The notes beneath the pieces were generated by a model. It was given only the letters and a program-made list of their open reading frames with translations, was not told the DNA's origin and did not search any database. From Alphaproteobacteria bacterium (GTDB taxonomy: Bacteria > Pseudomonadota > Alphaproteobacteria > UBA6615): a DNA stretch of 64,000 bases. Of this stretch, positions 44,690-59,406 are shown piece by piece. Every line of letters starts with the position of its first letter. Position 1 is the stretch's first letter. Position numbers and translations under genes: made by a program. The stretch is from positions 1-64,000 of the forward strand of contig SHVS01000006.1 of the NCBI GenBank assembly GCA_009694135.1, written 5' to 3'.

Positions 44690-44707
44690 GGATTTCGCTC
44701 TGGGCGC

Positions 44708-44947
44708 TTAGGCGCGTGGAACGGGGTCGAAGCCGGCCCCGCCCCAGGGGTGACAACGGAGGATCCGACGCAATGCAAGCCAGGACCCGCGCTTGGGCCC
44801 GTGCCGCTCGATCGCCTCAAGTGCGTATTCGGAACAACTGGGTGCGTAACGGCAGGCAGGGCCAAAGAGGGCGGCGAAGCCATAGCGCCAAGCCAGGATC
44901 ACGGCGCGCAGCCCGGCGCGGAGCCCCCGCTCAACATGCTGCATCAT
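44708..44947 (-). CDS. yidD: Membrane protein insertion efficiency factor YidD
   Basis: 79 aa small membrane-associated protein with the family signature [20 protein letters not shown] (about 23-42), followed by [20 protein letters not shown] and [13 protein letters not shown]. It assists YidC-dependent insertion. Its start overlaps the rnpA stop (ATGA, 44944-44947). A longer in-frame reading upstream would lie inside rnpA. Confidence 0.95.
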
Positions 44948-45369
44948 GCTCCCCCACGGCTTTGCTCGCCGTCCGCACGCCACAGCCCGAGCCGCCGCAG
45001 TGCCTGTTCCAGGTCGGCGAGCAGCAGCGGGAAGGGTCGCTCAACCGTGGCCGAGCGGCCGACCAAGACATAATCGAAGCCGGATTGGGCGTGGATGGGC
45101 ATGACCCTCTGTACCACGGCTCTGAGGCGACGCCGCGCGCGATTGCGTTGGACAGCGCCGCCGACCTTGCGGCTCACCGTGTAGCCGACCCCCAGCTCCT
45201 CGGCAATGCGCCCCGGGGCCGGAAGGCGCGGCGCCACTTGCAGCACAAGCCCGGGCGCGGCGAACCGCCGTCCGGCGGAACTTACGCGCAGAAACTCGGG
45301 TCGCCGGCGCAGCCTGGACAACTGCGCGCCCGGCACCGCTACAGGGGGTGCGGGTTGCGGCATCGGCAT
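44944..45369 (-). CDS. rnpA: Ribonuclease P protein component
   Basis: Protein subunit of RNase P, which cuts the 5' leader from pre-tRNA. About 141 aa with the RNR motif region [20 protein letters not shown] (about 70-89). [20 protein letters not shown] is the normal family start, so the first 15 residues (Met/Pro-rich) may be extra and a downstream start possible. Two ATGs (45369, 45363) fit. 119 bases after rpmH. Confidence 0.94.
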
Positions 45370-45488
45370 TCCCAATCGACATAAAGCACGGGGGGCAGGG
45401 CAGCCCGGCGCGGCCTCCCGCCTGGCACCCCCGGCGACTACCGACAGGGAAGTCGAGTCCGGAGGCGTCGGTCGGCCGTAGCGAGAGT

Positions 45489-45632
45489 CTAGTCGCTGAT
45501 CAGGTGTTTGCGGCCCTTGGCGCGACGGCGCGAGAGCACCAGACGCCCGCCGACCGACCCCATGCGCGCGCGGAATCCGTGCCGACGCTTACGGACTATC
45601 TTGCTCGGCTGCCAGGTGCGTTTCTGAGCCAT
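45489..45632 (-). CDS. rpmH: 50S ribosomal protein L34
   Basis: 47 aa, very basic. The minus strand reads [20 protein letters not shown] followed by [20 protein letters not shown] and RKHLISD. The conserved [17 protein letters not shown] and RRAKGRK blocks identify L34. It has two extra residues at the N-terminus and a slightly longer tail than the 44 aa E. coli protein. First gene of the rpmH-rnpA-yidD-yidC-engB cluster, with a strong promoter upstream. Confidence 0.96.
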
Positions 45633-45694
45633 GTTCACAAGCCTCAATAGCGGGTGACACCGGGACCGACGGCTCCGGAAGCCAGAGCGCGAGG

Positions 45695-45723
45695 TTGTAT
45701 CGAGCGCGGCGAAGGCTTGTCAA
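45695..45723 (-). promoter_or_regulatory. Promoter of the rpmH cluster
   Basis: On the minus strand a perfect TTGACA (45723-45718), a 17-base spacer and ATACAA (45700-45695) lie about 63 bases upstream of the rpmH start. A GANTC site (45725-45729) touches the -35 side. This is the best sigma-70 type match I saw in the window. Confidence 0.6.
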
Positions 45724-45837
45724 CGAATCCCGCGTGCGGAGCCCGGCGGCAAGCCATTCGCCGGCAGCATGCCCCTGAACGCTTGACAGCGGCCGCGCAA
45801 TAGGGACGCCTCTATTCCGGCCCGCAAATGCGGGCAA

Positions 45838-52569: not shown

Positions 52570-52595
52570 CGTTACGGCGTAGGAGACGTGGATTG

Positions 52596-54050
52596 ATGCG
52601 CGTAGTGACTTGGATCGTCGCGGCCTTGCTGCTGGCGACCGGGGCCTCGGCCAAGGATATGCTGACGCTGGGCGTGACGCTGGAGCCCGACCATCTCGAT
52701 CCGACTGCCGGCGCGGCGGCGGCGATCGACGAAATCGTTTATGCCAATGTGTTCGAAGGCCTGACGCGTTTTGACGAGACGGGCGCGGTCAAACCGCAGC
52801 TCGCCACCAGTTGGACCATCTCCGGCGACGGCCTCACTTACACCTTCGCGCTCAAGCCTGGGGTCAAGTTCCACGACGGCGCCGCGCTGACCTCAGCCGA
52901 CGTCAAATTCTCGTTCGACCGTGCCCGCGCGCCGGATTCGGTCAATGCGCAAAAGGGTTTATTCGCCGCCATCGATAAGGTCGAAGCGGTCGATCCGCAG
53001 ACTGCGCGTGTCACGCTCGCAAGGTCGGAAGGCGCGCTGCTATTTAATCTCGCCTGGGGCGATGCGGTGATCGTTTCGCCAGCGAGTGCTGCGGGCAATA
53101 AGACAAACCCGATTGGCACCGGCCCGTTTCGCTTCCAGCGCTGGGTCCAGGGCGACCGCGTCCAGTTGGTGCGTGCCGATGCGCGCGCCAAGCTTGCCGC
53201 CGCCACCTTCAAATTCATCCCCGACCCGGCGGCGCAGGTCGCGGCGCTGCTCGCCGGCGACATCGACGTGCTGCCCAATGCCGCCGCGCCCGAGGCGCTG
53301 CAGCAGCTGTCCGTCGATCGCCGCTTCGAAGTGGCGGTCGGCACCACCGAGGGCGAGACGATTCTCGCCATTAACAATGCGCGCAAGCCATTCGACGATG
53401 TGCGTGTCCGCCAGGCGCTGTCCTATGCCGTGGATCGCAAGGCGATCATCGACGGCGCGATGTATGGCTATGGCACGCCGATCGGCACGCATTTCGCGCC
53501 GCATCATCCGGCCTATGTCGATTTGACCGGCCTGTATCCCTATGATCCGGCCAAGGCGCGCGCGCTGTTGCAGGCGGCCGGGCTTGCGCAGGGCTTCAAG
53601 GCGACACTCAAGCTGCCGCCGCCGTCTTATGCCCGCCGCGGTGGGGAGATCATCGCGGCACAGCTCAAGCAGATCGGCGTGAGCGTCGAGATTGTGCCGG
53701 TCGAATGGGCGCAATGGCTCTCGCAGGTATTTCGCGACTCCGATTTCGATTTGACCATTGTTTCGCACACCGAACCGATGGACATCGAAATTTACGGCCG
53801 CGAAAAATATTACTTCAACTATCGCTCCGATCCGGTGCGCGCGGCGCTGCGCGCGCTCGACCGCACGCCGGGCGAGGCCGAGCGCTTTGGGCTATATCGC
53901 CAAGTCGAACGCTTGATCGCCGAGGACGCGGCCAATGTCTTCCTGTTCCAGCTCGCCAAGACCGGCGTTTGGCGGCGCGGCCTCGTCGGGATGTGGCGCA
54001 GCAGTCCGGTGCAGGCCAATGACCTGACCGGGGTCTATTGGCTCGAATAG
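52596..54050 (+). CDS. ABC transporter substrate-binding protein, SBP_bac_5 family
   Basis: 484 aa periplasmic protein for peptides or similar oligomeric/amine substrates. Sec signal peptide (RVVTWIVAALLLATGASAK, cleavage near residue 20). Family landmarks: LGVTLEPDHLDPTAGAAAAI (about 26-45), VYANVFEGLTRFDETGAVKP, GLTYTFALKPGVKFHDGAAL (about 82-101) and the later VRVRQALSYAVDRKAIIDGA. First gene of an operon with two permeases but no ATPase gene. A TTG three bases upstream is an alternative start. A palindromic operator candidate lies just upstream. Confidence 0.92.
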   Translation: MRVVTWIVAALLLATGASAKDMLTLGVTLEPDHLDPTAGAAAAIDEIVYANVFEGLTRFDETGAVKPQLATSWTISGDGLTYTFALKPGVKFHDGAALTSADVKFSFDRARAPDSVNAQKGLFAAIDKVEAVDPQTARVTLARSEGALLFNLAWGDAVIVSPASAAGNKTNPIGTGPFRFQRWVQGDRVQLVRADARAKLAAATFKFIPDPAAQVAALLAGDIDVLPNAAAPEALQQLSVDRRFEVAVGTTEGETILAINNARKPFDDVRVRQALSYAVDRKAIIDGAMYGYGTPIGTHFAPHHPAYVDLTGLYPYDPAKARALLQAAGLAQGFKATLKLPPPSYARRGGEIIAAQLKQIGVSVEIVPVEWAQWLSQVFRDSDFDLTIVSHTEPMDIEIYGREKYYFNYRSDPVRAALRALDRTPGEAERFGLYRQVERLIAEDAANVFLFQLAKTGVWRRGLVGMWRSSPVQANDLTGVYWLE

Positions 54051-54078
54051 CGGGCCCCGTCCGCGGCGCCGCGCAGCA

Positions 54079-55026
54079 ATGCTGACGCTGCTCGGCCGAC
54101 GGCTGATCGGGGCATTGCTCGCGCTCCTGCTGGCGAGCCTGATTGTCTTCGTGGTGCTCGAAGTGCTGCCCGGCGACGCCGCTCAGCTGATGCTTGGGAT
54201 CAACGCCGATCCCGCGGCGCTCGCGGCGTTGCGCGCCGAACTCGGACTGGATAGGCCGGCGCCGGCGAGGTTTCTGCTTTGGCTCGCGGAGTTGCTGCAA
54301 GGCGAGCTCGGCCGCAGCCACACCAATGCGCGACCGGTGGCGGCGCTGATCGGCGAGCGCCTGGGAGTAACGGTGCCGCTGGCGCTGTTCGCCTTTCTGT
54401 TGTCGACGAATTTGGCTGTGCCGCTCGGTTTTCTTGCGGCGTTGCGGCGCGACCGCGCTGGCGACGTCGTGGTGATGGCGCTCTCACAGCTCGGGCTGGC
54501 GGTGCCAGAGTTCTGGCTCGGGTTACTCTTGATTCTGCTGTTCGCCGTCTCGCTCGGTTGGTTGCCCGCGGGCGGTTTCCCCGGCTGGCAGGGCGGGGTG
54601 GGTGGCGCGCTTGCCGCGCTGCTGCTGCCGGCGGTCACGCTCGGCCTCAACCAGGCGGCGATTTTGGCGCGCGTTGCCCGTCGTGCGGCGATCACCGCGC
54701 TCGCCGCCGATCATGTGCGCACGGCGCGCGCCAAGGGACTGTCCGAGCCGCGTGTCATTCTCGGTCACGTTCTGCGCAACACGCTGGCGACGCTGCTCGC
54801 CCTCATGGGCTTGCAGCTGGCCTTTTTGCTTGCTGGCGTCATCGTAGTCGAGAACCTGTTCTATCTCCCGGGTCTCGGTCGCTTGCTGCTGCAAGCGGTG
54901 ACGCAGCGCGATGTCGTGGTGGTGCGCGACTTGGTGCTGCTCTTCGTGTTCGTGGCGATCGCGCTCAATTTTCTGGTCGATGTTTTGGTCGCGGTGATCG
55001 ATCCTCGCCCGCGGGCGACGGCATGA
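54079..55026 (+). CDS. ABC transporter permease, DppB type
   Basis: 315 aa inner-membrane permease. Starts LTLLGRRLIGALLALLLASL; six spans; DLxGxS-like RSHTNARPV segment after the first periplasmic loop. EAA loop: DHVRTARAKGLSEPRVILGH (about 213-232). The C-terminus GVIVVENLFYLPGLGRLLLQ is typical of the DppB/GsiC family. Its stop overlaps the start of the second permease by four bases (ATGA). Confidence 0.93.
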   Translation: MLTLLGRRLIGALLALLLASLIVFVVLEVLPGDAAQLMLGINADPAALAALRAELGLDRPAPARFLLWLAELLQGELGRSHTNARPVAALIGERLGVTVPLALFAFLLSTNLAVPLGFLAALRRDRAGDVVVMALSQLGLAVPEFWLGLLLILLFAVSLGWLPAGGFPGWQGGVGGALAALLLPAVTLGLNQAAILARVARRAAITALAADHVRTARAKGLSEPRVILGHVLRNTLATLLALMGLQLAFLLAGVIVVENLFYLPGLGRLLLQAVTQRDVVVVRDLVLLFVFVAIALNFLVDVLVAVIDPRPRATA

Positions 55027-55853
55027 CGACGCATCGTGCTCCGCTCAATCTGCTGCTCGGCGGCGGGCTGGTTGTCCTGCTTCTGGCGTCGGCCGCGCTG
55101 TCGCTCGTGTGGACGCCCTATGCGTATGATGCGATCGACATCGCCGCGCGGCTTGATCCGCCGAGCGCGCGCCACTGGCTTGGCACCGACCCGTTCGGGC
55201 GTGACGTGCTGTCACGCATCCTTGTTGGCGCGCGCATGTCGATCGCTGTCGGGTTTGTCGCGGTCGGCGTCGGGCTCTTGGCCGGGGTTGCGCTCGGCGG
55301 GCTGGCGGCGGCGCGGCGCGGCTGGGTAGACGAGTTGGTCATGGGGTCGAGCGATGTGGTGTTTGCCTTCCCGGCGATCCTCTCGGCGCTGCTGATCACC
55401 GTGACGCTCGGGCCCGGGGTCGTGAATGCCGTGCTTGCCATCGGCATTTTCAACATTCCGGTGTTCGCGCGCGTGACGCGGCGCGCCGCGCTTGGCATCT
55501 GGGCGATGGATTACGCCCGCGCCGCGGCGGCGCTCGGGCAGGGCGGCTTGGCGGTGACCTGGCGGCATGTGCTGCCCAATGTCGCGCCGCTGTTGATCGT
55601 GCAGGCGAGCGTGCAATTCGCGATCGCAATACTGGCCGAGGCGGCGCTGAGCTATCTCGGCCTTGGCGCGCAGCCGCCGATCCCGTCTTGGGGGCGGATG
55701 TTGTATGACGCGCAGACTCTGCTGGCGCTGCAACCAACGCTGGCGCTGTTCCCTGGGCTGGCGATCATGCTCGCCGTGCTTGGGCTCAATCTGCTCGGCG
55801 ATGGGCTGGCTGATCGGCTCGACCCGCGTTTGCGTGCCGTGCGGCTGGTTTGA
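55023..55853 (+). CDS. ABC transporter permease, DppC type
   Basis: 276 aa inner-membrane permease. The DppC motif [20 protein letters not shown] (about 49-68) follows the first span. EAA loop: [20 protein letters not shown] (about 161-180). Ends with [17 protein letters not shown] and [16 protein letters not shown], the family C-terminus. No ATPase gene follows; the next gene on the strand is the broken phosphonate transaminase, which begins 17 bases later. A longer reading starting at 54279 in this frame is inside the other permease and is not real. Confidence 0.93.
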
Positions 55854-55870: not shown

Positions 55871-56973
55871 ATGACCCGCGCTCCGAGCGACTCACCCATC
55901 CTGCTCACACCCGGGCCATTGACCACGGCGCAAGCGGTGCGTGACGCCATGGCGCGCGACTGGGGCTCGCGCGACCCCGGCTTTATCGAACTCACCGCGC
56001 GTGTGCGCGCGGGCTTGGCGGGTTTGGTCGCGGCGGAGGAGGGTTTCACCGCCGTTCCGATCCAAGGCAGCGGAACCTTCGCCGTCGAGGCGATGCTCGG
56101 CACTTTCGTGCCGCCCAAAGGCCGGCTGCTGGTCGCGAGCAACGGTGCTTATGGCCGGCGCATGGCCAGCGCCAAGGGCGTGCGATTGCCATGCTGGAAA
56201 GCCCGGAAGAACAGCCGCTAGTCTGCTGCTGGCGCTGCGCGCGGACCCAGCCATCACCCATGTCGCCGTGGTGCATTGCGAGACCACCACCGGCGTCTTG
56301 AATCCGCTCGGAAAGATTGCGACTGCGGTCGGGCGCTACGGGCCGGCGACTCCTCGTCGATGCGATGCGCAGCCTCGGGGCGCTGCCGGTGAATGCACGC
56401 GATCCGATCGACGCCATCGCGGCTTCGGCCAATAAATGCCTGGAAGGCGTGCCGGGCGTGGCTTTCGTGCTGGCGAGCGAGCGGGCGCTCATGGCGGCGC
56501 GCGGCCAGGCACCGTCGCTGAGCCTCGATTTGCACGATCAATGGTCGGGCTTCGCTGAAAAGGGCGAATGGCGCTTCACCCCGCCGACGCAGGTCGTGGC
56601 CGCGCTGGCCGCTGCGCTCGACCGCCATGCGGCCGAAGGGGGTGTCGCCGCGCGTGGGGAGCGTTATCGGCAAAATTGTGCGGCGCTCATTACAGGCATG
56701 CGGGCGCTCGACTTCGCGCCGCTGCTCGCGCCCGCGCATCAGGCGCCGATCATCGTTACCTTCTGCATGCCGGCCGATCCGCGCTTCGCCTTCAAGCCGT
56801 TTTACGACCAATTGGCCGCGCGCGGGTTCCTGATCTACCCCGGCAAATTGACGGCCGGTCCGAGTTTCCGCATCGGCTGCATCGGCGCGATTGACGAGAG
56901 CGACATTCGGCTTGCGCTGGCGACCGTCGCCGCCAGCATGCAAGCGTTGGGGGTCGCGAGCGGCGCTCCTTAA
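55871..56973 (+). pseudogene. phnW: 2-aminoethylphosphonate--pyruvate transaminase, frameshifted
   Basis: AAGGA precedes the ATG at 55871. Frame 1 reads [34 protein letters not shown] and [20 protein letters not shown], the unmistakable PhnW N-terminus. Three shifts then follow: near 56170 (to ESPEEQPL), near 56215 (to [20 protein letters not shown], then [13 protein letters not shown]), and near 56340 (to [16 protein letters not shown]). The last frame holds the PLP lysine in [17 protein letters not shown] and runs to a normal C-terminus (GKLTAGPSFRIGCIGAID). An intact enzyme of about 368 aa would exchange the amino group between phosphonoacetaldehyde and 2-aminoethylphosphonate. As written it cannot be made. 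Confidence 0.85.
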
Positions 56974-57728
56974 TTGCTCTGCAGGAATTCCTGAAAGCGG
57001 CGCGCCATCTGCGGCGGCGCAATCGTCGGGCGGCCAAGCTTGGCCAGTGCTCCGGGCGCGATCCGCAGATGGATCAGATGCGGCCCGTCGCTTGCCAATG
57101 CGTCGGTCAGCGCCGATGCGAAACCCGCCAGCTCATCGACGCAGGTTCCACTCGCATAACCGCAAGCGAGAGCGACGTCGGCGAAATCAACGCTGGCTGA
57201 CACGGTGCGCTGCCCGCCGGTCGAGTCATGCACGCCGTTGTCGAGCACCAGATGCACCAGGTTCTTCGGCGCGCGCGCTCCGATTGTGGCGCAATTGCCG
57301 AGCTTCATCAGCGCCGCCCCGTCGCCGTCGATGACTACGACTGGTCGGGCGACATTGAGCGCGACGCCCAGCCCCATCGCCGCGGCGCAGCCCATCGAGC
57401 CGACCTGGTAGAGGTGCTGCGGCCGGTCATTGAGAGTGAACAGCTCGCGCCCGGTCTTGCCGGTCGTGGCGATCACCGCCGCGCGTTCGGGCAAGAGTTC
57501 CAGCAACCGCGTGAGCGCCGCCGCGAGCGTTGGCGCGATCTGAGCGGGCTGCTCGGGAAATAGCTGGTGGGCGACGCGCAGGACATCCAGGAGCGGGCCG
57601 GTCGCTTCGCCCATGAGCGCGTGCTGCGGCTCGTCCTTGAGCCCCGGTTCGCCGCGCACGTCGAGCATGCATTTCGGCCGGTCAAGCGTAAGCGCGCCCA
57701 GCGCCTCGCCACGCGACGCCGCCAGCAC
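56970..57728 (-). pseudogene. Phosphonopyruvate decarboxylase C-terminal half, joined to nucleotidyltransferase start
   Basis: Open reading of about 252 codons with no proper start codon. From about residue 27 on it is the C-terminal, thiamine-diphosphate-binding half of phosphonopyruvate decarboxylase: GLKDEPQHALMGEATGPLLD, then YQVGSMGCAAAMGLGVALN, the cofactor motif VVVIDGDGAALMKLGN and LDNGVHDSTGGQRTVS. The N-terminal pyrimidine-binding half is missing. Instead residues 2-26 read LAASRGEALGALTLDRPKCM followed by LDVRGEP, the N-terminus of a nucleotidyltransferase that belongs to the upstream PEP mutase gene. The two meet at Arg-Gly-Glu-Pro, which both parents should contain. Stop codon overlaps that of phnW on the other strand. 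Confidence 0.82.
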
Positions 57729-58661
57729 GATCGCGCGCGCGCGGCGCGACCGCGGTCAGGTAGTGGCGCTCGGCCTCGCGCAGCTCCGCGTCATTGGTCA
57801 GGGCAAAGACATCGCGCACGCTGGCAAGCTCGCCTTGGACGCCCGCGATGCCTTCGTCGCGCGCCATGCGTTGTGCGACCGCGCGCATCGCCTTGATGGA
57901 TGCGCGCAGCGTTTGATTGCCCTCGATCGCCAATGACACGCCCGCTTCGCGATAGCGTTCGGCCGGAGTATGCGCATAGGTCGTCGGCACGATCACCAGC
58001 GGGGCGCGTTAGGCCCAGAGCCGGGCGAAGGCAAGGATCTCACCGGCCGTCGGCGCCTTGGAATGGATCAGGATCGCGTCCGCTCCGGCGTCGTGATAGG
58101 CTGCGGCGCGTGCCAGAGCTTCATCAAGGCTGCGCCCGGCGATCAACGCCTCGACGCGCGCCACAAGAACGAAATCTGGATTGGTCTGGCTGTCCTTGCC
58201 GGCTTTGATCTTGCCGCAAACTCCTCGACGTCGGCTAACGGCTGCGCCTCGCCGATGAAGGAGTTGGTCCTGGGGAACAGCTTGTCCTCGATGCACACGC
58301 CGGCGATGCCGCGCTCGCAGAGCTTGCGCAGCAGCCGCCGCAGATTGTTGAAATTGCCGTAGCCCGTGTCGCCGTCGACTAAAATCGGGATGTTCGTCGC
58401 GTCCGCCATGAACTCGAGGGTCTCGAGCACCTGGGTCTAGGACGCTTCATTGCTGTCGCGCACGCCCATGGCGGCGGAGATCGCCAGCCCCGAGGCCCAG
58501 ATGCCGGGAAAACCGGATTCCTCGACGATCTTGGCCGAAAGACCATTATGCGCCTCCATGATGAAGCGCAGACCGGGTCCGGCCAACAGCGAGCGCAGCG
58601 CCGCCGCCTTACCGATGCGGGCCGCGTGCGCCTCGACCGCTTGCGATGAGAGCAGGCTCAT
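57662..58661 (-). pseudogene. pepM: Phosphoenolpyruvate mutase (with start of a fused nucleotidyltransferase), inactivated
   Basis: PEP mutase makes phosphonopyruvate, the first C-P bond of phosphonate synthesis. The pieces read in order: [20 protein letters not shown] and [20 protein letters not shown], then an in-frame TAG (58437-58439) where Trp is expected. Next [18 protein letters not shown] and the catalytic [11 protein letters not shown], then a one-base shift near 58217 to [11 protein letters not shown] and [20 protein letters not shown]. An in-frame TAA follows (58009-58011), then VIVPTTYAHTPAERYREAG and a further shift near 57735 in a GC-dinucleotide run into the nucleotidyltransferase start. 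Two stops plus two shifts make this a true pseudogene. Confidence 0.87.
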
Positions 58662-58743
58662 CAGGCTAATTTCCGGTTAAAGGTCATCGGGGCTACATAG
58701 CGCTGGTGTGCCGGCCTGTCCATGCGGGCCGATCAAAGAGAAA

Positions 58744-58767
58744 CGGCGGTCCGTTTCCAGACCGCCG
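58744..58767 (-). terminator. Second of two tandem terminators after the histone-like gene
   Basis: CGGCGGTC (58744-58751) pairs with GACCGCCG (58760-58767). On the minus strand the hairpin is followed by TTTCTCTTTG. It is similar in sequence to the neighbouring hairpin at 58814-58841, so the pair probably arose by duplication. Confidence 0.6.
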
Positions 58768-58813
58768 CAGGCGATGCGTTCAGGGAGCGCGCCGCCAAAC
58801 AGGCAAAAAGCGA

Positions 58814-58841
58814 AACGGCGGTCCGTTGCCGGACCGCCGTT
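58814..58841 (-). terminator. First of two tandem terminators after the histone-like gene
   Basis: Perfect 11-base stem AACGGCGGTCC / GGACCGCCGTT with loop GTTGCC. On the minus strand it is followed by TCGCTTTTTG, giving a U-rich run, 31 bases after the stop of the histone H1-like gene. A clear intrinsic terminator. Confidence 0.75.
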
Positions 58842-58871: not shown

Positions 58872-59342
58872 CTAGATGATCTTGCGGCTGCCGAACCGGT
58901 CGTAAACGACGAGCGTTGGCCCGACAACAGGGGCCAAGTGGCCCCGTCGTGCAGAAGCCTTCTTTTTCGCCGAACTGCGTCGTGCGCCAGGCTTGCGCGT
59001 GGACGCCTTCTTGGAGCGCCGGGCAGTCTTGCGGACGGCCTTGCGCGCACCCGTCTTGCGGACGGCTTTGCGAACGCCAGTCTTGCGTGCGCCGGCAGCG
59101 CGACGCGTGCTCGCGCGACGGCCGGCCGCCTTGCGGGTACCGGTCTTCGCTTTCGCGCGCCGCGTCGAAGTCTTACGCACGGCAGCCTTGGTCGACTTGC
59201 GCGTGGTCTTCTTCGACTTGACGCGACGGGTCGTCTTGACGCTGCTCGAGCGGGCAGACTTGCTCTTGCCAGCGCGAGACTTGGACCAACGCGACTTGGA
59301 AGTCTTGCTCATCTTACGCTTAGAAGTTTTGGCTCTAGCCAT
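58872..59342 (-). CDS. Histone H1-like Lys/Arg/Ala-rich nucleoid protein
   Basis: 156 aa. The first 130 residues are almost only Lys, Arg, Ala, Ser and Thr, with imperfect repeats such as RKTGVRKAVRKTGARKAVRK. This composition matches bacterial H1-like DNA-binding proteins (AlgP, Hc1/Hc2 type), which bind DNA without a fixed sequence. Odd feature: a non-basic tail, GHLAPVVGPTLVVYDRFGSR, which looks structured. GGAGGG lies six bases before the ATG at 59342. It has its own tandem terminators, so it is a single-gene transcript. Confidence 0.8.
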   Translation of the reverse strand: MARAKTSKRKMSKTSKSRWSKSRAGKSKSARSSSVKTTRRVKSKKTTRKSTKAAVRKTSTRRAKAKTGTRKAAGRRASTRRAAGARKTGVRKAVRKTGARKAVRKTARRSKKASTRKPGARRSSAKKKASARRGHLAPVVGPTLVVYDRFGSRKII

Positions 59343-59406
59343 CTCTTGTCCCTCCGATTGACCAGCAGGCAAACCCCATCTCTCGGGTCAGAGAACGTTT
59401 CATTAA

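Follow-up and report, generated by a model that had tools for sequence, protein, structure and literature searches.

The window, i.e., the whole stretch of 64,000 nucleotides that was analysed (C29:1-64000), belongs to an alphaproteobacterial MAG of 1.60 Mb (30 contigs, 79% complete, 0.45% contamination). Positions 55871-58661 hold a block of genes for the synthesis of 2-aminoethylphosphonate (AEP), a carbon-phosphorus compound that is usually attached to the cell surface. The route, established for these enzyme families, leads from PEP to phosphonopyruvate (PepM), then to phosphonoacetaldehyde (Ppd) and finally to AEP (PhnW). The block extends from the ATG of phnW at 55871, which sits 17 bp past the last ABC permease gene, to the ATG of pepM at 58661; phnW lies on the forward strand and is convergent with ppd and pepM, which follow in this order on the reverse strand (Table 1). 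An initial annotation, made from the sequence alone, had assigned three adjacent pieces to these enzymes and regarded their neighbours as intact. Profile matches far beyond chance and the alignment to intact relatives confirm the assignment, and the flanking genes, i.e., those for the SBP_bac_5 protein (485 aa), the two permeases (315 and 276 aa) and the histone-like protein, are all open. The ABC transporter is not needed for the AEP block, and a Pfam search with the histone-like gene (58872-59372) gave no match. Between pepM and the latter gene, two direct copies of 33 bp are situated (58735-58767 and 58807-58839), which are 91% identical and hairpin-forming.

Table 1. Features of the AEP block and its flanks (window coordinates)
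Feature	Position	Strand	Basis
Flanking ABC transporter, SBP_bac_5 protein and two permeases, open	52593..55853	+	ORFs, profile searches
phnW pseudogene (AEP transaminase)	55871..56973	+	Frameshift-aware alignment; PRK13479 5.7e-82 for tail
ppd remnant (phosphonopyruvate decarboxylase), C-terminal TPP-binding domain	56970..57656	-	Alignment, profiles
252-codon open frame, PntC-domain start and ppd remnant	56970..57728	-	ORF, alignment
Deletion junction, PntC 'DVRG' to Ppd 'RGEPGLKDEP'	57645..57662	-	Comparison with intact relatives
pepM-pntC pseudogene	57657..58661	-	Frameshift-aware alignment, profile searches
Flanking Lys/Arg/Ala-rich histone-like gene, open, 166 aa	58872..59372	-	ORF

Lesions were mapped by frameshift-aware alignment of the DNA to the proteins of two intact relatives (G007 and G039). 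In pepM, two stop codons (TAG at 58439-58437, TAA at 58011-58009) and two frameshifts (near 58216 and near 57745-57750) are found; identity amounts to 211 of 327 residues against G007 and 220 of 343 against G039 (64-65%). Both halves of PepM, each with one of the stops, match PF13714 above the cut-off (1.4e-31 and 1.3e-20), and the PEP mutase motif EDKXXXXXNS is still readable in the fragment 58430-58143. Concerning the full-length model (TIGR02320), the fragments reach 54-55 bits against a cut-off of 319.6, and no single open frame exceeds it. phnW exhibits three frameshifts (near 56166-56175, near 56222-56231 and near 56334-56343) as well as small gaps; 202 of 358 residues are identical (56-58% against the two relatives), and profile matches amount to 5e-70 and 4e-33. 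Its last 218 codons are open, and this tail scores 276 bits against a cut-off of 296 (TIGR03301, PRK13479), such that here, too, no single open frame passes.

The initial annotation considered all three genes to be broken by stops, shifts or truncation. This applies to pepM and phnW with their stops and frameshifts, whereas the ppd remnant contains neither and is truncated by deletion: of 379 residues, the first ~98 are deleted, such that the match begins at residue 99, and ~53 are missing internally; 151 of 225 residues (67-68%) are identical. The match to TIGR03297 (E = 4e-78; 263 bits, cut-off 312.5) covers the C-terminal domain only, not both TPP domains. In the intact relatives, a MobA-like NTP transferase domain (PntC) is fused to the C-terminus of PepM, the fusion protein having 563 aa in G007 and 554 aa in G039 and comprising PF13714 and PF12804 in L107. 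In the window, this domain is cut to its first ~27 residues, and a complete C-terminal NTP transferase domain of the PF13714 + PF12804 fusion is lacking. PntC passes in-frame into Ppd (..DRPKCMLDVRG EPGLKDEPQH..), and the ~945-961 bp that separate the two joined points in G007 and G039 are absent. At these points, several intact relatives possess a direct repeat of 12 (L004, L105) or 11 (L016) identical bases, in others, including G007, of only 3-8. A deletion between short repeats would be the simplest cause of the loss of ~0.95 kb. Since the repeat shares its codon register at both points, the resulting 252-codon frame is open; it is a chimera of decay and not a known protein. A further shared frame exists in L035 (9452-10897), where a PepM match of 49 aa and Ppd lie in one open frame, possibly by another pepM-ppd deletion or an assembly fault.

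Among sites kept in at least 97% of the relatives, the window is changed at 3 of 89 in PepM, 2 of 71 in Ppd and 4 of 79 in PhnW (9 of 239 in total), the leave-one-out medians of the relatives at those sites being 0-1.3%. By a rough calculation, ~2.2% of random changes would create a stop codon, such that one to two nonsense codons correspond to ~2-4% neutral divergence, with 9-19 changes expected at conserved codons, compared to the 9 observed. Rough as this estimate is, the conserved-site changes fit a young pseudogene, and the earlier claim that the ability was lost recently agrees with a few percent of neutral divergence. Open genes cover the remainder of the window except for one large gap (44690-45837), which holds yidD, rnpA and rpmH; in 13 stretches beyond the window (~250 kb), the density of open genes is about equal, and genome-wide 37 of 38 ABC_tran matches are without a stop. 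Genome-wide decay or poor sequence was therefore rejected, as neither the window nor the ~250-kb sample showed signs of either. An ABC transporter ATPase match in the same genome (G000:C10:27577-28011) carries an in-frame TAG; other pseudogenes are thus present at low frequency. Profile searches of the assembly (79% complete) revealed no second PEP mutase and no close PhnW; the assumption of an intact second copy was rejected on this basis, although one may lie in the missing ~21%.

The initial annotation had proposed to search relatives for intact versions of the genes, for fusions and for extra cargo genes, and all of these exist. In G007, a member of the same family, phnW (+), ppd (-) and pepM-pntC (-) are intact and in the same convergent order, and the locus adjoins an NTP transferase and a CDP-alcohol phosphotransferase gene; intact versions are also found in G039. 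PepM and PntC are fused in these relatives, the additional genes being NTP2, which encodes a further NTP transferase, and the one for the CDP-alcohol phosphotransferase. Within the family (24 genomes), PepM of the window's type is restricted to G007 and the window's own genome. The Ppd tree puts the window nearest to L004 and G039, weakly supported, and a grouping with G007 is compatible with the AU test (p-AU 0.36). The search for congeneric relatives gave none, and synteny via the neighbouring amino-acid permease was dropped as a criterion, the relatives being too distant (~47% identity). Two further genomes of the family, G017 (L119) and G021 (L120), possess a different PepM with an N-terminal extension and the motif EDKTGPKRNS, together with a ppd that lies beside a polysaccharide-type epimerase gene. 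PhyH-type dioxygenases are situated near pepM in G007 (L103:11376-12227), L005 (172-909) and L107 (7533-8543); the best match of the one in G007 is a methylphosphonate hydroxylase model, below its cut-off. The phosphonate may thus be hydroxylated in those relatives.

On another contig of the window's genome (C19), a hopanoid cluster comprises genes for a CDP-alcohol phosphotransferase, HpnM, HpnN, NTP2, HpnA, HpnL, IspH, HpnH, HpnG and Shc. HpnN (867 bits, cut-off 752), HpnH (532, cut-off 225) and Shc (758, cut-off 431) exceed their cut-offs, HpnG stays below (164 bits, cut-off 187), and shc, hpnH and hpnN are open. Within this otherwise open cluster, two genes are damaged (L162:12084-13483): of the ~252 residues of NTP2, 125 are left, and HpnA exhibits one in-frame TAG. 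There is no pepM in this cluster, and the search of the window for hpn genes gave none; a hybrid hopanoid-phosphonate cluster, i.e., one with AEP genes inside the hopanoid cluster, is thus not seen in this assembly. Two places of the putative pathway, the AEP block and C19, are damaged while the hopanoid core stays open. As HpnA occurs in genomes without PepM, too, its stop may be unrelated and is only suggestive; the truncated NTP2 constitutes the stronger support. The PntC fusion, the short-repeat deletion and this second damaged place had been missed by the initial annotation.

In relatives, AEP genes are linked to hopanoid genes. We found 17 loci in which Ppd or PepM occurs with at least three of shc, hpnG, hpnH, ispH, hpnA, hpnN and hpnM: 14 belong to the set of 80 (L004, L008, L009, L014, L017, L018, L019, L022, L035, L036, L051, L055, L058, L063), and the other three are from whole genomes (G039, G050 = L107, G030 = L109). 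PepM is present in 12 of the 17, and as a fragment in L035; in L008, L009, L055 and L058, Ppd lies within the hopanoid cluster and no PepM was found nearby. Three hopanoid-phosphonate loci (L051, L055, L067) come from records titled Klebsiella pneumoniae MAG, titles that look wrong. Most AEP-hpn loci also contain NTP2 and the CDP-alcohol phosphotransferase. The cluster of L107 holds PepM-PntC, Ppd and PhnW, and NCBIfam cut-offs are exceeded by hopene cyclase (673 bits), HpnH (545), HpnA (485), PEP mutase (388), Ppd (424) and HpnN (959), as well as by PhnW; a single frame of 1097 aa (L107:12516-15806) consists of the CDP-alcohol phosphotransferase (PF01066) as its first and HpnN as its second part. 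Five genomes that lack this PepM have neither NTP2 nor the CDP-alcohol phosphotransferase next to their hpn genes, and in G007 and G037 both sit with PepM and not beside hpn genes. Both genes thus track PepM and not hpn genes alone. Among the 60 relatives and the window's genome, hpnA exceeds its cut-off in all six that possess this PepM and in five others; the association (Fisher 9e-6, 60-genome table) concerns related, i.e., non-independent, genomes and a PepM sought by DNA similarity, and it supports a link without proving it. HpnA was rejected as a phosphonate gene proper, being also present in five genomes in which no PepM of this type was detected by DNA search. In G007, L005, L007, L012, L016 and Paraburkholderia loci, the AEP genes have no hpn genes nearby. 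Taken as gene neighbourhood, the linkage of AEP synthesis with NTP2, the CDP-alcohol phosphotransferase and HpnA/HpnN/HpnM would point to an envelope lipid.

The breaks could be consensus errors or the product of a chimeric MAG, the genes being intact in the organism. The state of the source (a MAG, 79% complete, in 30 contigs) invites this suspicion; however, at least seven point lesions and two to three deletions fall within 2.8 kb that have open genes on either side and a densely coding remainder of the window around them, a deletion of ~0.95 kb at a short repeat is no base-calling error, and the other contigs look sound, such that we consider an artefact very improbable. Even less credit can be given to the assumption that the 252-codon frame is expressed in a new role, e.g., as a TPP-binding-domain subunit. 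Both deletions are in-frame, neither stop nor frameshift interrupts the 252 codons, and the TPP motif GDG..N can still be read; yet the shared register of the repeat explains this openness, the N-terminal TPP domain is missing, and the frame reaches 131 bits against the sulfopyruvate decarboxylase beta subunit (TIGR03846), below the cut-off of 221.5. Changes at conserved sites are not rarer in Ppd than in PepM, small as the numbers are, and no extra constraint on the ppd frame was seen in this comparison.

A foreign AEP cassette that was acquired horizontally, never became established and decayed after its arrival, without loss of a long-held trait, would agree with the rarity of this PepM type in the family, with the weakly supported position of the window's Ppd nearer to L004 and G039 than to G007, and with the horizontal movement of phosphonate genes among marine microbes (PMC8931226). 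Nevertheless, we regard it as unlikely: order and orientation are those of G007, the clade with G007 is not rejected, and the partner genes, NTP2 and the CDP-alcohol phosphotransferase, are located within the hpn cluster of a different contig and thereby suggest that the pathway was resident.

With high confidence, we interpret the block as the recent loss of an AEP pathway, which probably served a membrane lipid, in a lineage that is still hopanoid-capable. The ancestor would have converted PEP via phosphonopyruvate (PepM) and phosphonoacetaldehyde (Ppd) to AEP (PhnW), and the PntC domain fused to PepM would have activated AEP to CMP-AEP. The CDP-alcohol phosphotransferase may then have moved AEP onto a lipid alcohol, either a hopanoid or diacylglycerol, and transport of the HpnN/HpnM type may have carried the AEP-lipid to the outer membrane; for acceptor and export, it is the gene neighbourhood that suggests these steps. 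The earlier alternative of a surface decoration or a small molecule is narrowed by the PntC fusion and the linked genes to a presumable envelope lipid. More tentatively, and with considerable doubt, the CDP-alcohol phosphotransferase of the relatives (fused to HpnN in L107) might join CMP-AEP to a hopanoid or another lipid handled by HpnN/HpnM, and the window's lineage would then be a knock-out that keeps plain hopanoids. The locus is of interest since AEP synthesis has been knocked out naturally while the hopanoid core was retained, and since the recurrent linkage of AEP genes, NTP2, CDP-alcohol phosphotransferase, HpnA, HpnN and HpnM leads to a specific hypothesis on an unknown phosphonate lipid.

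As a pseudogene cluster, the block is nothing unusual; it represents a known pathway type in a dead state. It is most similar to the Pnt pathway (PepM-PntC/Ppd/AEP transaminase; Rice et al. 2019, PMC6697681), with which it shares the three enzymes, the MobA-like C-terminal fusion and the motif EDKXXXXXNS; PepM-NTP-transferase fusions are common, and other PntCs were shown to make CMP-AEP (PMC6697681). Contrary to that pathway (PMC6697681), all parts are broken in the window and ~27 residues of the PntC domain are left. The locus of G007 (L103) has the same order, but is intact, and has the NTP transferase and CDP-alcohol phosphotransferase beside phnW, where the window has the ABC transporter.

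Concerning hopanoids, HpnN is stated to shuttle them to the outer membrane (PMC12583986). A 2025 survey of alphaproteobacterial hopanoids saw no additional candidates in the neighbourhood of hpn clusters; it still counts hpnA and hpnL among the genes whose function is not established, and describes what exactly hpnM does as elusive (PMC12583986). Our literature search, thin on subscription papers, found no description of AEP-hpn loci that include the CDP-alcohol phosphotransferase and the HpnN fusion. For Roseomonas, however, a report from 2021 describes a linkage of hopene cyclase and PepM and predicts a terpene-phosphonate (PMC8776678). Equally to these hybrids, the AEP genes of the relatives studied here are hopanoid-linked, and the window's genome has its leftover NTP2 and CDP-alcohol phosphotransferase in the hpn cluster, whereas its AEP block is dead and lies on a separate contig. 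Furthermore, the relatives belong mostly to other lineages, and they exhibit the CDP-alcohol phosphotransferase as well as the protein in which it is fused to HpnN.
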